64,000 nt of DNA from positions 764,001-828,000 of the forward strand of contig NZ_CP031167.1 in NCBI RefSeq assembly GCF_004346925.1, in the 5' to 3' direction. This stretch comes from Stenotrophomonas sp. ASS1 (GTDB lineage Bacteria; Pseudomonadota; Gammaproteobacteria; Xanthomonadales; Xanthomonadaceae). Shown here in pieces: positions 33,563 through 37,982 of the stretch (within the stretch, counting starts at the first letter, position 1; every line of letters starts with the position of its first letter). The notes under the pieces were generated by a model. That model searched no databases, had not been told where the DNA came from, and saw nothing but the letters and a program-made list of their open reading frames with translations. A program made the position numbers and the translations under genes.

Positions 33563-34654
33563 ATGGGTATCAAATGCGGCATCGTCGGCCTGCCCAACGT
33601 CGGCAAGTCGACCCTGTTCAATGCGCTGACCAAGGCGGGTATCGCCGCGGCGAACTTCCCGTTCTGCACCATCGAACCGAACGTCGGCATCGTGCCGGTG
33701 CCGGATCCGCGCCTGAACGAGCTGGCAGCGATCATCAACCCGCAGAAGGTCATCCCGACCGCAGTCGAATTCGTCGACATCGCCGGCCTGGTGGCCGGTG
33801 CCGCCAGCGGTGAAGGCCTGGGCAACAAGTTCCTGGCGCACATCCGCGAAGTCGATGCGATCACCCACGTGGTGCGCTGCTTCGAGAACGCCGACGTCAT
33901 CCACGTCAACAACAAGGTCGACCCGATCTCGGACATCGAAACCATCGATACCGAGCTGGCGCTGGCCGACCTGGACAGCGTCGAGAAGGCGCTGAACCGC
34001 GCCGAGCGTGCGGCCAAGGGGGGTGACAAGGACGCCGCGGCGCGCAAGCCGGTGCTGGCCAAGCTGCAGGCGGCGCTGTCCGACGGCAAGTCCGGCCGTT
34101 CGGTGGGCCTGGACGAGGAAGAGAAGGCGCTGGTGCGCGATCTGTTCCTGCTGACCCTGAAGCCGGTGATGTACATCGCCAACGTGCTGGAAGACGGTTT
34201 CGACAACAACCCGCACCTGGAAGCCGTGCGTGCGCATGCTGCCGCCGAAGGCGCGCAGGTGGTGCCGGTGTCGGCCGCGATCGAAGAGGAGCTGTCCCAG
34301 CTCGATGACGAAGACCGCGATACCTTCCTGGCCGATCTGGGCCTGAGCGAGCCGGGCCTGAACCGCGTGATCAACGCGGCCTACAGCCTGCTCGGCCTGC
34401 AGACCTACTTCACCGCCGGCGTGAAGGAAGTCCGCGCGTGGACCGTGCGCAAGGGCGCCACCGCCCCGCAGGCCGCCGCGGTCATCCACACCGACTTCGA
34501 GAAGGGCTTCATCCGCGCCGAAACCATCGCGTATGACGACTTCATCAAGTACAAGGGCGAAGCCGGCGCCAAGGAAGCCGGTCGCCTGCGCCTGGAAGGC
34601 AAGGAATACCGCGTGCAGGAAGGCGACGTGCTGCACTTCCGCTTCAACGTCTGA
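33563..34654 (+). CDS. ychF: Redox-regulated ATPase YchF
   Basis: A 363-residue Obg-family P-loop protein that binds ATP rather than GTP and associates with ribosomes. Walker A is GLPNVGKST at residues 8-16; the switch region is [18 protein letters not shown], then DIAGLV and a helical hairpin. The C-terminal TGS domain includes [20 protein letters not shown] and [13 protein letters not shown]. The length equals E. coli YchF. The start at 33563 matches the family N-terminus [12 protein letters not shown]. Ends at a strong terminator. Confidence 0.97.
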
Positions 34655-34716: not shown

Positions 34717-34818
34717 ATGGACAAAAAAGCACCAGGCTGCGAAACGCTTGCGGTGCGACGTTTGCCGGCACTTGTCCACAGAAAACTCCCATCGCTTTCC
34801 ACGCCGGATGTGGAAAAC
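34717..34818 (+). repeat. 102-bp direct repeat, unit 1
   Basis: It begins ATGGACAAAAAAGCACCAGG and ends GATGTGGAAAAC. Inside are TTGTCCACA at 34772-34780 and, on the opposite strand, TTTTCCACA at 34809-34817, with starts 37 bp apart. The 3' end forms a TTTCCAC/GTGGAAA stem with a 7-base loop. Most diverged of the three units. Confidence 0.85.
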
Positions 34819-34822
34819 CGTG

Positions 34823-34860
34823 GGGGCGGATCCCTTTCCACGGGAAAGGGCTCCGACCCC
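34823..34860. repeat. Long hairpin between repeat units 1 and 2
   Basis: Nested arms GGGG-CGGA-CCCTTTCC and GGAAAGGG-TCCG-CCCC, with a 3-base ACG loop, one internal mismatch and a one-base bulge, give about 16 base pairs. It is absent between units 2 and 3. Confidence 0.75.
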
Positions 34861-34878
34861 GATCAGTGCAGTCGGACC

Positions 34879-34980
34879 GTGGACAGAATTTCACCACGCT
34901 TCGAAACGCCTGCGCTGCAATGCTCGCGCCCACTTGTCCACACCAAGTTCCCATCGCTCTCCACGTCCGGTGTGGAAAAC
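34879..34980 (+). repeat. 102-bp direct repeat, unit 2
   Basis: It begins GTGGACAGAATTTCACCACG and ends GGTGTGGAAAAC. TTGTCCACA lies at 34934-34942 and TTTTCCACA (minus strand) at 34971-34979, again 37 bp apart. In its last 50 bp it differs from unit 3 at only about three positions. Confidence 0.88.
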
Positions 34981-34991
34981 AATCGAAGGAC

Positions 34992-35093
34992 ATGGACAAA
35001 AAATCACCACGTCCGGAAACGCCCGCACTGCAAGCCTCGCGGCCACTTGTCCACACCAAGTTCCCATCGCTTTCCACGCGCGGTGTGGAAAAC
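34992..35093 (+). repeat. 102-bp direct repeat, unit 3
   Basis: It begins ATGGACAAAAAATCACCACG and ends GGTGTGGAAAAC. TTGTCCACA lies at 35047-35055 and TTTTCCACA (minus strand) at 35084-35092. Only 11 bp separate it from unit 2. Confidence 0.88.
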
Positions 35094-35105
35094 CCGCGTG
35101 GCCCG

Positions 35106-35174
35106 CTCTGGTAGTCGCCCACCTTGGTGGGCGCGTGGCAGATCAGTGCCCACCAAGGTGGGCATCTACCAGAG
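35106..35174. repeat. Inverted SMAG pair
   Basis: CTCTGGTAGTCGCCCACCTT... and its near-exact inverse ending ATCTACCAGAG. The two GCCCACCTTGGTGGGC stems are 35117-35132 and 35148-35163. Confidence 0.8.
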
Positions 35175-35183
35175 CCAGGTTCC

Positions 35184-35243: not shown

Positions 35244-37982
35244 TTACAGCGCGCTGCCACCGAACTTGTGGGTGTACTGCAGGTTGATGGTGCGGCCGAC
35301 GCTGTCGAACCAGGACACGTCGTAGTACGGATACGCGGTGTACGTGGCGTCCTTCGGCGGCATCTTGTTGAACACGTTGACCACCGACAGCGACAGGCGC
35401 GAGTGGTCGTCGAAGCGGTACTGCAGCGACGCGTTGTAGCGGTAGGTTGCCTTGATGTACGGGCTGTCACCGCTGTCCCAGTCGAAGGTCTGGCCGTAGC
35501 TGTCATAGGTTGGCAGCTTGCCAAGTCGTGAACCGTAGACTGTGGCCGACCATGCAGCCTTCTCCCAGGTCACGCTCAGGCTGGTCTTGGTACGCGGGAT
35601 GTCGAAGTTGCTGTTGACCGCGAACTGGTCCTGGATCGGATCACCGGGGTAGCGCTGGAAATCGTGCTTCTTCACCCAGGTGTGGGTGCCGTTGAGGATG
35701 AAGTCGCCGATGCCGGTCTGCAGGCGGTAGCGCAGGCCAATGTCGATGCCGGAGGTGGATTCGCGGGCGACGTTGATCGGGGCGACACGCACGCCGTACA
35801 GGCGGCCATCACTGGTGCGGGTGATGCGGTCGAGCGCGTCCACGCAGGTCGGCGAGTTGATGTCGGCACTGCCGAGGCGGCAGTTCGCTTCGCTGGCCAG
35901 GATCGTGCGCACGTCCATGTCCTGCACCTGCTTGCGCATGTCGATGTCGAACCAGTCCACCGACAGGTCCAGGCCGATCGCCGGCGACCAGACGAAGCCG
36001 GCACTCCACGAGGTGCTGGTTTCCGGGTCGAGCTGGCGGTTGCCGGTGCGGCTGCGGATCAGGTTGTGCTCGTAGTCGGAACAGTCGGCGGCATCGTCGG
36101 CGCGGCAGCTGTACAGGTCCACTGCGCTGGTCTCGTCGTTGCCCGGGCCGGCGAACACGTAGTGGAGGTCCGGCGCACGGAACGCGGTGCCGTATGAACC
36201 GCGGACCAGCAGCGTGTCGATCGGGCGCCATTCCAGGCCACCGCTCCAGGTCGCCTTGCCGATGGTGTGGCCGGAATAGCGGTACTGGTCGTAGCGGCCG
36301 GCCACGCTCAGGTTGACCGTCTCGTGCAGCGGCATGCGCAGCTCCGCAGCGGTCGCCCAGCGGTTGCGCGAACCGTTGCCGTCCGAATCCTTCCAGCTGT
36401 AGTAGTAGTACTCGGTCGCCAGCGGATCGGGGTTCAGCGAGTACGCCTGCTGGCCCACTTCCACGGTCGCGGCGAAGCCGGCATCACCGCCCGGCAGGCC
36501 GAACAGCGCGGAATTGGTCAGCGTGAACGCAGCCGTCTCGGTGCGCGACTTCGGGGTGTAGGTGGTGCGCGCCGCGATCGAATCGTACTCGGCGCGGGTC
36601 AGCGGCCGGTACAGGCGCGACGGGTCGGCGTTGTAGATCGGGAAGCCGTCGTCGTCCACGCCCAGCTGCGGGCCCAGGAACAGGTCATTGGCTTTGGCGG
36701 CGATGATCTGTGCCCAGCTGATCCGCGACTGGTACTGCGAATGGCTCAGGGCCGCTTCGTAGTCCCAGTTGCCGGCCAGGTTGCCCTTGAAGCCGGTGGT
36801 CACGCTGAAGGTCTTCTGCGTGCTGCGCACCATTGCATTGCGCAGGCCACCCATCTCCTCGGGCGAGAACTGGCGCTGCCAGAACTCGATCTCGCCGGTG
36901 GCCTGGTTGTTGAAATAGCCCGACTCATCGCCGTTGGCGTCCATGCGGCCCCACTTGGTGACGTCGCGCATCAGCGACATCGTGTGGTAGCCCAGCTGCA
37001 CATCGGCGAACCACTGCTGGCCGTTGTCGAAGTCGTAGCTCAGCGAGGCGTAGCCATTGGCGCCGCGGCGCTTGCTGAGTATGGTGCCGTAGCCGATCGA
37101 GCTGTCGCTGCCGCAGTAGTAACCGTAGCGCGGGCGGTAGGCGCGGTAGGTGCTGCCCTGGTTCTGCCCGGCCAGCGCTTCGCAGGTGGCCGCGCCCGGA
37201 TCCAGGTAGTCGTCGTTGTAGTCCGTGCGCAGGTAAGCGCGGCGTGCGATGCGTGAGCCCTCGGTGGGGCCGTCCTGGGTCGAATCCTGGATGTCGCGCT
37301 CGTACGCCCACAGCGGGGTCTGCGACTGCAGTTCAACGCTGTACACGGCGTTGAAGTTGCCACGGCTGAAGCCACTGGCCAGGCTCATGTCGAACGACTC
37401 GCCACCGCCTTCGCTGGTGGTGCCCATGCGCATGTCGACGGTGGTGCCGTCGGCCTTCTTCTTCAGGATGAAGTTGACCACGCCGGCGATCGCGTCCGAA
37501 CCGTAGATGGCCGAGGCACTGCCGGTCAGCACTTCGATGCGCTCGATCATGCCCAGCGGGATGTTGGAGACGTCGGTGAAGTTGCTGCGGCCCTTGAACG
37601 GCATCGGGAAGTCGGCGATGCGGCGGCCATTGACCAGCACCAGCGTGTGGTTCGGGCCCAGCCCGCGCAGGTCCACCTGCTGGGCGCCCGGCGAGAAGTC
37701 GGCGCCGCTGGACGACTGCTGGCTCTGCGTCTCACCGCCGTTCTGGGTCATCGAGCGCAGTACGTCGGGCACGCTGGTGAAGCCGCTGGAGCGGATCTGC
37801 TCGGCGCTGATCACCGTGATCGGGGCGGGGCCTTCCACCTGGGCGCGCGGAATGCGCGAACCGGTGACCTGCACCGCATCCAGTTGTTGAACCGAAGAGG
37901 AGGCCGGTGCCTGGGCCGCCGCGGAAGCAGCCACGCCCATCAACGCCAGCTGGATCGACCACGCCATCGCCTTTCTACGCAT
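35244..37982 (-). CDS. TonB-dependent outer-membrane receptor
   Basis: A 912-residue receptor. A signal peptide (MRRKAMAWSIQLALMGVAAS, then AAAQA) is followed by a TonB-box-like LDAVQVTGSRI. The plug domain includes VSAEQIRSSG-type and GPNHTLVLVNGRRIAD segments and the characteristic IERIEVLTGSASAIYGSDAI. A large 22-strand barrel ends in NLQYTHKFGG. It imports an unidentified ligand across the outer membrane using the proton force. The start at 37982 gives a proper signal peptide; the open frame extends upstream without one. It is divergent from the cyanophycinase gene across 170 bp, suggesting a shared substrate such as a peptide. Confidence 0.92.
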   Translation of the reverse strand: MRRKAMAWSIQLALMGVAASAAAQAPASSSVQQLDAVQVTGSRIPRAQVEGPAPITVISAEQIRSSGFTSVPDVLRSMTQNGGETQSQQSSSGADFSPGAQQVDLRGLGPNHTLVLVNGRRIADFPMPFKGRSNFTDVSNIPLGMIERIEVLTGSASAIYGSDAIAGVVNFILKKKADGTTVDMRMGTTSEGGGESFDMSLASGFSRGNFNAVYSVELQSQTPLWAYERDIQDSTQDGPTEGSRIARRAYLRTDYNDDYLDPGAATCEALAGQNQGSTYRAYRPRYGYYCGSDSSIGYGTILSKRRGANGYASLSYDFDNGQQWFADVQLGYHTMSLMRDVTKWGRMDANGDESGYFNNQATGEIEFWQRQFSPEEMGGLRNAMVRSTQKTFSVTTGFKGNLAGNWDYEAALSHSQYQSRISWAQIIAAKANDLFLGPQLGVDDDGFPIYNADPSRLYRPLTRAEYDSIAARTTYTPKSRTETAAFTLTNSALFGLPGGDAGFAATVEVGQQAYSLNPDPLATEYYYYSWKDSDGNGSRNRWATAAELRMPLHETVNLSVAGRYDQYRYSGHTIGKATWSGGLEWRPIDTLLVRGSYGTAFRAPDLHYVFAGPGNDETSAVDLYSCRADDAADCSDYEHNLIRSRTGNRQLDPETSTSWSAGFVWSPAIGLDLSVDWFDIDMRKQVQDMDVRTILASEANCRLGSADINSPTCVDALDRITRTSDGRLYGVRVAPINVARESTSGIDIGLRYRLQTGIGDFILNGTHTWVKKHDFQRYPGDPIQDQFAVNSNFDIPRTKTSLSVTWEKAAWSATVYGSRLGKLPTYDSYGQTFDWDSGDSPYIKATYRYNASLQYRFDDHSRLSLSVVNVFNKMPPKDATYTAYPYYDVSWFDSVGRTINLQYTHKFGGSAL

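Follow-up and report, generated by a model that had tools for sequence, protein, structure and literature searches.

The complete chromosome of Stenotrophomonas sp. ASS1 (4.56 Mb, with dnaA at 1-1329) was analyzed in a window of 64,000 nucleotides corresponding to its positions 764001-828000; coordinates below are those of the window unless the chromosome is named. The ychF gene lies at 33563-34654, and its product YchF matches TIGR00092 with 522 bits. A TonB-dependent receptor gene on the minus strand ends at 35244 and is thus convergent with ychF, which ends at 34654. The gap between the two genes contains three tandem units of ~100 bp, which form a direct-repeat family (D1, copies at 34718-34818, 34880-34980 and 34993-35093) in which the other two copies are 77% and 85% identical to the middle one. 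The initial annotation had described three tandem repeats in a convergent intergenic region, each with TTGTCCACA followed 37 bp on by an inverted TTTTCCACA, and all of this was confirmed, the 37 bp being measured from start to start in each of the three units. Its inventory of six outer boxes was likewise correct and yet incomplete, since every unit also contains a weak inner box, box II, and an AT-rich dyad. The order within each unit is AT-rich dyad, 37 bp, box III', box II and inverted box I; the starts of boxes III' and II are 23 bp apart in all three units, and those of boxes II and I, which stand head to head, 14 bp. The features are as follows, strands being given where assigned.

34718..34817, plus strand: unit 1, ~100 bp, dyad and DnaA box module (repeat and box scan)
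34718..34734: unit 1 dyad TGGACAAAAAAGCACCA, resembling a Fis site; this copy departs from the strict Fis consensus
34772..34780, plus strand: unit 1 distal box III' TTGTCCACA (box scan)
34795..34803, plus strand: unit 1 box II CTTTCCACG, weak, two mismatches to TTWTNCACA
34809..34817, minus strand: unit 1 box I TTTTCCACA, head to head with box II, starts 14 bp apart
34880..34979, plus strand: unit 2, ~100 bp (repeat and box scan)
34880..34896: unit 2 dyad TGGACAGAATTTCACCA
34934..34942, plus strand: unit 2 box III' TTGTCCACA (box scan)
34957..34965, plus strand: unit 2 box II CTCTCCACG, weak, three mismatches
34971..34979, minus strand: unit 2 box I TTTTCCACA (box scan)
34993..35092, plus strand: unit 3, ~100 bp (repeat and box scan)
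34993..35009: unit 3 dyad TGGACAAAAAATCACCA
35047..35055, plus strand: unit 3 box III' TTGTCCACA (box scan)
35070..35078, plus strand: unit 3 box II CTTTCCACG, weak, two mismatches
35084..35092, minus strand: unit 3 box I TTTTCCACA (box scan)

The pattern TTNTCCACA occurs six times in the 64-kb window against 0.75 expected, a number reached by none of 100 shuffles. The excess of the E. coli consensus TTWTNCACA is weaker, with four occurrences (three of them in the array) against 0.95 expected and three of 100 window shuffles reaching four. The whole chromosome contains 46 copies of TTNTCCACA versus 28 of the reversed pattern; six of the 46 lie in the array, and only two other chromosomal places have two copies within 100 bp. 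This concentration of strong outer boxes, the densest TTNTCCACA cluster of the chromosome, located 17.5% of the way round from dnaA, speaks for a datA-like or passively titrating locus, in which a nine-box array would bind DnaA-ATP and either stimulate its hydrolysis or hold it, thereby lowering free DnaA after replication of the locus. We regard this explanation as possible though unlikely, for reasons of geometry and sequence content given below.

Two repetitive elements are found within and beside the array. A 39-bp REP-like palindrome with many dispersed copies in Stenotrophomonas genomes separates units 1 and 2 (34822-34860), and it is probably the cause of the variable distance between these units in relatives. 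Just after unit 3 there is a pair of 28-nt inverted repeats (35105-35175), presumably a repetitive palindrome of the SMAG/GTAG type. Their presence lends some plausibility to the main alternative of the initial annotation, namely a Stenotrophomonas-specific extragenic repeat (REP- or SMAG-like) that carries the 9-mers by chance. SMAG/GTAG palindromes are described, in the parts of the sources concerned, as short repeats present in high copy number or in clusters (PMC2613905, PMC3733652). The DnaA units are extragenic like them and have similar elements next to them, if the latter are rightly assigned, but they are few and are not palindromic as a whole.

Conservation and distribution of the three-box module

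When the 377-bp array was used as query, matches were obtained in 27 of 61 genomes, all 27 being among the 37 of the genus Stenotrophomonas, and none in the 24 genomes of the order outside the genus. Many further short matches, among those listed, corresponded to approximately positions 106-144 of the query, that is, to the separate 39-bp palindrome. YchF adjoins 25 of the 27 best array loci; exact box pairs number three in 20 of these ychF loci and two in the other five. One of them (L017) has an enlarged array, in which two exact units are accompanied by three partial ones, so the copy number of the ychF units changes. An alignment of the ychF arrays at 23 of the 25 loci (L017 and L018 were dropped, and the row of L011 contains no array) gave a median pairwise identity of 0.66. 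The array of L011 is situated outside the 520 bp used for each row, and that of L018, which has three box pairs, outside the 1.1 kb in which modules were counted. Majority identity was 0.922 in the box columns versus 0.682 in the rest of the array, and when the box mask was shifted circularly only one of 377 positions, the unshifted one, reached 0.922. The check proposed initially, whether the 9-mers are kept while the rest varies, thus had a clear outcome: the boxes are kept and the remainder drifts.

The three boxes make up a module of 46 bp, which is present in 87 of 91 genus genomes and, across the family, in 50 of 198 genomes and 13 of 54 genera (reversed controls, 0 in both searches); in this strict form it is absent from the other 148 family genomes. 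Among 252 genomes drawn from the class only three have it, all of them Xanthomonadaceae. Genus genomes carry from 0 to 5 modules each. The ASS1 genome has four, three of them in the ychF array and the fourth solitary, at chromosome positions 2725031-2725076, at the 5' end of a methyltransferase reading frame. The 46-mer of the solitary module recurs identically or nearly so in many genus genomes, although the ychF units drift. Since it adjoins a methyltransferase gene at 2.725 Mb, a link to the bioD/bioC neighbourhood of E. coli DARS1 was considered; it was rejected, as the BioC models score 26 bits against cut-offs of 342 and 185.

The distances between boxes were also examined with a search that left box II unspecified and allowed any spacer from 14 to 43 (30 spacers) between the outer boxes. 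This pattern was found in 58 of the 198 family genomes (reversed control, 0). Among 43 modules in 30 such loci, the spacer was 28 in 38, 29 in four and 41 in one. The box II core TCCAC, which is absent from the query, had the same position in 36 of the 37 unique 46-mers once each had been turned to its better-scoring strand. In unique modules with spacer 28, the best inner box lay at 14 from box I in 236 of 245 and elsewhere in nine, and modules with spacer 29 still showed a I-II distance of 14 in 6/6, both counts including many loci that had been selected with box II in the pattern. Across the family, a half-box resembling TTGTCC sits between boxes III' and II, 11 bp from box II; this intermediate half-box is degraded and is poor in the window (AACTCCCAT, AGTTCCCAT).

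A scan of named genomes returned at least 119 stretches; the 80 listed include matches in Stenotrophomonas, Xanthomonas, Pseudoxanthomonas, Thermomonas, Luteimonas and Lysobacter, others in Luteibacter, Dyella, Rhodanobacter and Frateuria, and a small number in metagenome bins of other origin. Outside the genus, the module shows little other similarity to the Stenotrophomonas arrays. This, together with the ceiling of five modules per genome in the 91 genus genomes and the fact that the boxes are the conserved part, is hard to reconcile with a dispersed repeat carrying the 9-mers by chance; in our view, low copy number and box-specific conservation refute that alternative, and we give it next to no probability.

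Elsewhere (L170 and L261), three modules that share an identical 46-mer follow one another in tandem at distances of 137-139 bp beside a LuxR-type response regulator gene; this set is another triplication, at another locus. In two other genera (L262 and L265), the module adjoins a CDP-alcohol phosphatidyltransferase gene and a NUDIX gene. These flanking genes were picked mechanically as the longest ORFs, some of which overlap a module. Several neighbours are without a Pfam match, and the Pfam-named neighbours in other genera mostly differ, with one pair of genera having a common neighbourhood. Such variety, and the convergence of both flanking genes on the array at ychF, weigh against a transcriptional element through which DnaA and Fis would regulate a nearby promoter or small RNA. 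In its favour is the related E. coli-type core discussed in the next section: wherever PriA was found (41 of the 60 loci fetched), this core shares the strand of PriA and precedes the PriA start by 55-193 bp. We consider this explanation improbable in general, and at ychF itself a promoter or RNA element was rejected, given the convergent genes and an Rfam search of the array in which no family reached its gathering score and only sub-threshold matches were seen.

The AT-rich dyad and the core upstream of priA

The dyad of the units is close to TGGTNAANNNTTNACCA, with a centre of mostly A/T, and in the window its centre lies 69 bp before box II. As this consensus was read off the units themselves, their own dyad scores are partly circular. 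In 90 units less than 60% alike upstream, the mean score was 9.38 of 12 at the expected place versus 4.64 at a control offset. Within a set of 134 divergent 46-bp modules, 105 had a score of at least 9 (53 of them at 71 bp and 22 at 69 bp), and 104 of these 105 had the dyad centre at 68-72 bp before box II, whereas shuffled upstream sequences reached 9 anywhere in only 44 of 2680 cases. The strict Fis consensus, in the form given in a passage of PMC8682772, was found at the dyad in only 77 of 298 unique upstream sequences versus two of 298 in the adjoining stretch. The ASS1 genome encodes DnaA, Hda (above the curated cut-off) and a Fis homologue that is 50% identical to the E. coli protein over residues 22-97 of the latter, and binding of Fis at the dyad is plausible. 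An additional minus-strand DnaA half-box ~56 bp before box III', which falls on the dyad's left arm, was rejected as a general feature, being present in 50 of 121 ychF units versus three of 176 others. IHF sites were likewise rejected as part of the element: the IHF sequence consensus gave one stray match in the 90 divergent units and occurred at no fixed place.

A core with the strict E. coli-type spacing (III-12-II-14-I) was found in 173 of the 196 genomes of the family, nearly always as a single copy, and in 105 of 274 genomes of the class (reversed controls, 0 in both). Of the loci examined, 29 of 30 from the family and 12 of 30 from the class have PriA encoded next to the core. In ASS1 the core is found at chromosome position 4035728, before priA, with a II-III distance of 12, and the whole element occupies 4035656-4035757. 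Divergent priA-type elements of the family had a dyad score of at least 9 in 16 of 19 cases; in all 16 of these well-matching elements the dyad preceded box II by 70-72 bp, and in 12 by exactly 71 bp. For class-wide cores the corresponding figures were 13 of 27, with 70-71 bp in 12 of the 13 well-matching cores and 71 bp in 11. Shuffled upstreams scored at least 9 anywhere in 11 of 380 (priA-type) and 43 of 540 (class cores) cases. Counted within -73 to -69, 12 of 30 class loci reached 9 (4 of 12 linked to priA and 8 of 18 others). The recurrence of the dyad at the same distance indicates a common layout for the ychF units and the priA element, with box III as the main difference between them. 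The strict whole pattern, in which the dyad and an E. coli-type core are separated by a single exact distance, is found in only six of 252 class genomes, two of which belong to the genus (reversed control, 0), and the dyad is therefore degenerate or partial across the class. In E. coli itself, priA has no such core, since a scan of 270 bp around the start of the gene showed only one box, with one mismatch, and DARS1 and DARS2 have no dyad at the corresponding place.

Comparison with known DnaA control loci

The recharging of DnaA by DARS sites has been worked out in E. coli, where DARS2 needs IHF and where Fis-binding sites in the DARS2 regulatory region are needed for activity. We scanned MG1655 at the places of DARS1 and DARS2, and found boxes at 2108(+), 2122(-) and 2134(-) of L036 for the former and at 1136(+), 1150(-) and 1162(-) of L037 for the latter; both measure 14 bp from I to II and 12 bp from II to III. 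As far as the relevant parts of the sources go, both sites have the same box spacing and a box I oriented against II and III, DARS1 has a stated length of 101 bp and a regulatory region of ~50 bp (PMC5742627), and the head-to-head arrangement of I and II is essential (PMC10380432). The units of the array resemble DARS in having three DnaA boxes, of which box I runs opposite to the other two (box II being weak in the window), in a size of ~100 bp, and in I-II starts 14 bp apart in all three, so that the module carries the E. coli I-II pair. On the box III side they also have the dyad, a possible Fis site, where E. coli DARS2 has one exact Fis consensus. Several differences exist, however. First, box III' is 23 bp from box II instead of 12, which places it 11 bp, or about one helical turn, further out than the E. 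coli box III. In addition, the dyad 68-72 bp before box II is absent from that place in E. coli, and the units are without an IHF consensus at a fixed place. Besides, they are three in tandem and lie in another chromosomal neighbourhood. Given the II-III distance and the lack of the IHF site, a DARS2 feature, the array was not classed as a member of DARS. The core upstream of priA shares the I-II pair with the units and, at many loci, also the dyad, which lies ~71 bp before box II, giving a total length of ~102 bp; it differs in its box III, 12 bp from box II, in being nearly always single in the family, and in its gene-proximal position co-oriented with priA.

With datA the array has in common that it is an intergenic cluster of DnaA boxes away from oriC. 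The minimal datA, according to part of PMC10380432, includes an IHF site, and the distance between this site and the essential boxes is important, whereas the units have none at a fixed place and differ in their box distances. In E. coli datA we saw one close head-to-head pair among boxes with at most one mismatch, and its members are 12 apart, not 14; with no matching spacing in its box list, datA was rejected as the closest relative. Titration alone would have no need for a near-invariant 14-bp head-to-head pair or a near-fixed dyad distance. On the other side, the ASS1 genome already has an E. coli-type DARS core upstream of priA, and the array could for that reason serve the opposite arm of the DnaA cycle. 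Weighing DARS-like, datA-like and titrating loci against each other, we favour the DARS-like reading. The earlier proposal that the array resembles datA or DARS more than a coding or promoter element is supported, its box order and I-II distance being those of E. coli DARS.

Taken together, these comparisons point with moderate confidence towards a chromosomal DnaA control locus of the DARS type, composed of three tandem units that very probably bind DnaA. Judging from the geometry, our best guess is that they would act by nucleotide exchange, from ADP to ATP, rather than by hydrolysis or titration. DnaA-ADP, produced by Hda-dependent inactivation after each initiation, would bind boxes II and I head to head, and the resulting dimer would be stabilised both by DnaA on box III', which is displaced outward by about one helical turn relative to the E. 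coli box III, and by a DNA-bending protein bound to the dyad. The stabilised dimer would then release its ADP, and the freed DnaA could take up ATP and become able to start replication again; three units would provide three such sites per chromosome copy. It is tempting to speculate, as a more tentative proposal, that a class of ~100-bp DnaA recharging stations exists throughout the Gammaproteobacteria, with a Fis-like dyad centred ~71 bp before box II, followed by III, II and inverted I. An old copy upstream of priA might tie replication restart to DnaA recharge, the Xanthomonadales might have evolved a long-armed version with box III one helical turn further out, and Stenotrophomonas might have tripled it behind ychF.

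DARS-like sequences are described as conserved in many proteobacteria (PMC10380432), and the DARS2 core as conserved in species related to E. coli (PMC4245941, PMC5742627), in the parts of these sources that deal with conservation. The open-licence literature gave no account of DARS in Stenotrophomonas, Xanthomonas or the order Xanthomonadales. By title, papers found for DnaA boxes with Stenotrophomonas concern other matters, and those for DARS homologues with Vibrio and Pseudomonas are unrelated; in one paper combining DnaA box, priA and DARS, the passages on DARS mention no such priA site. The priA element may already have been noted in the first description of DARS in 2009.

If the units are DARS-like, the system would extend to the Xanthomonadales, and its geometry there could be read off the sequence. 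Setting the box III design with 12 bp against that with 23 bp would test which construction the DnaA oligomer requires. Because the layout is close to that of the E. coli DnaA-recharging sites, the units may help to time chromosome replication, and, as the E. coli DARS sites affect fitness and colonisation according to the portion of PMC4585315 concerned, the same question opens for Stenotrophomonas.
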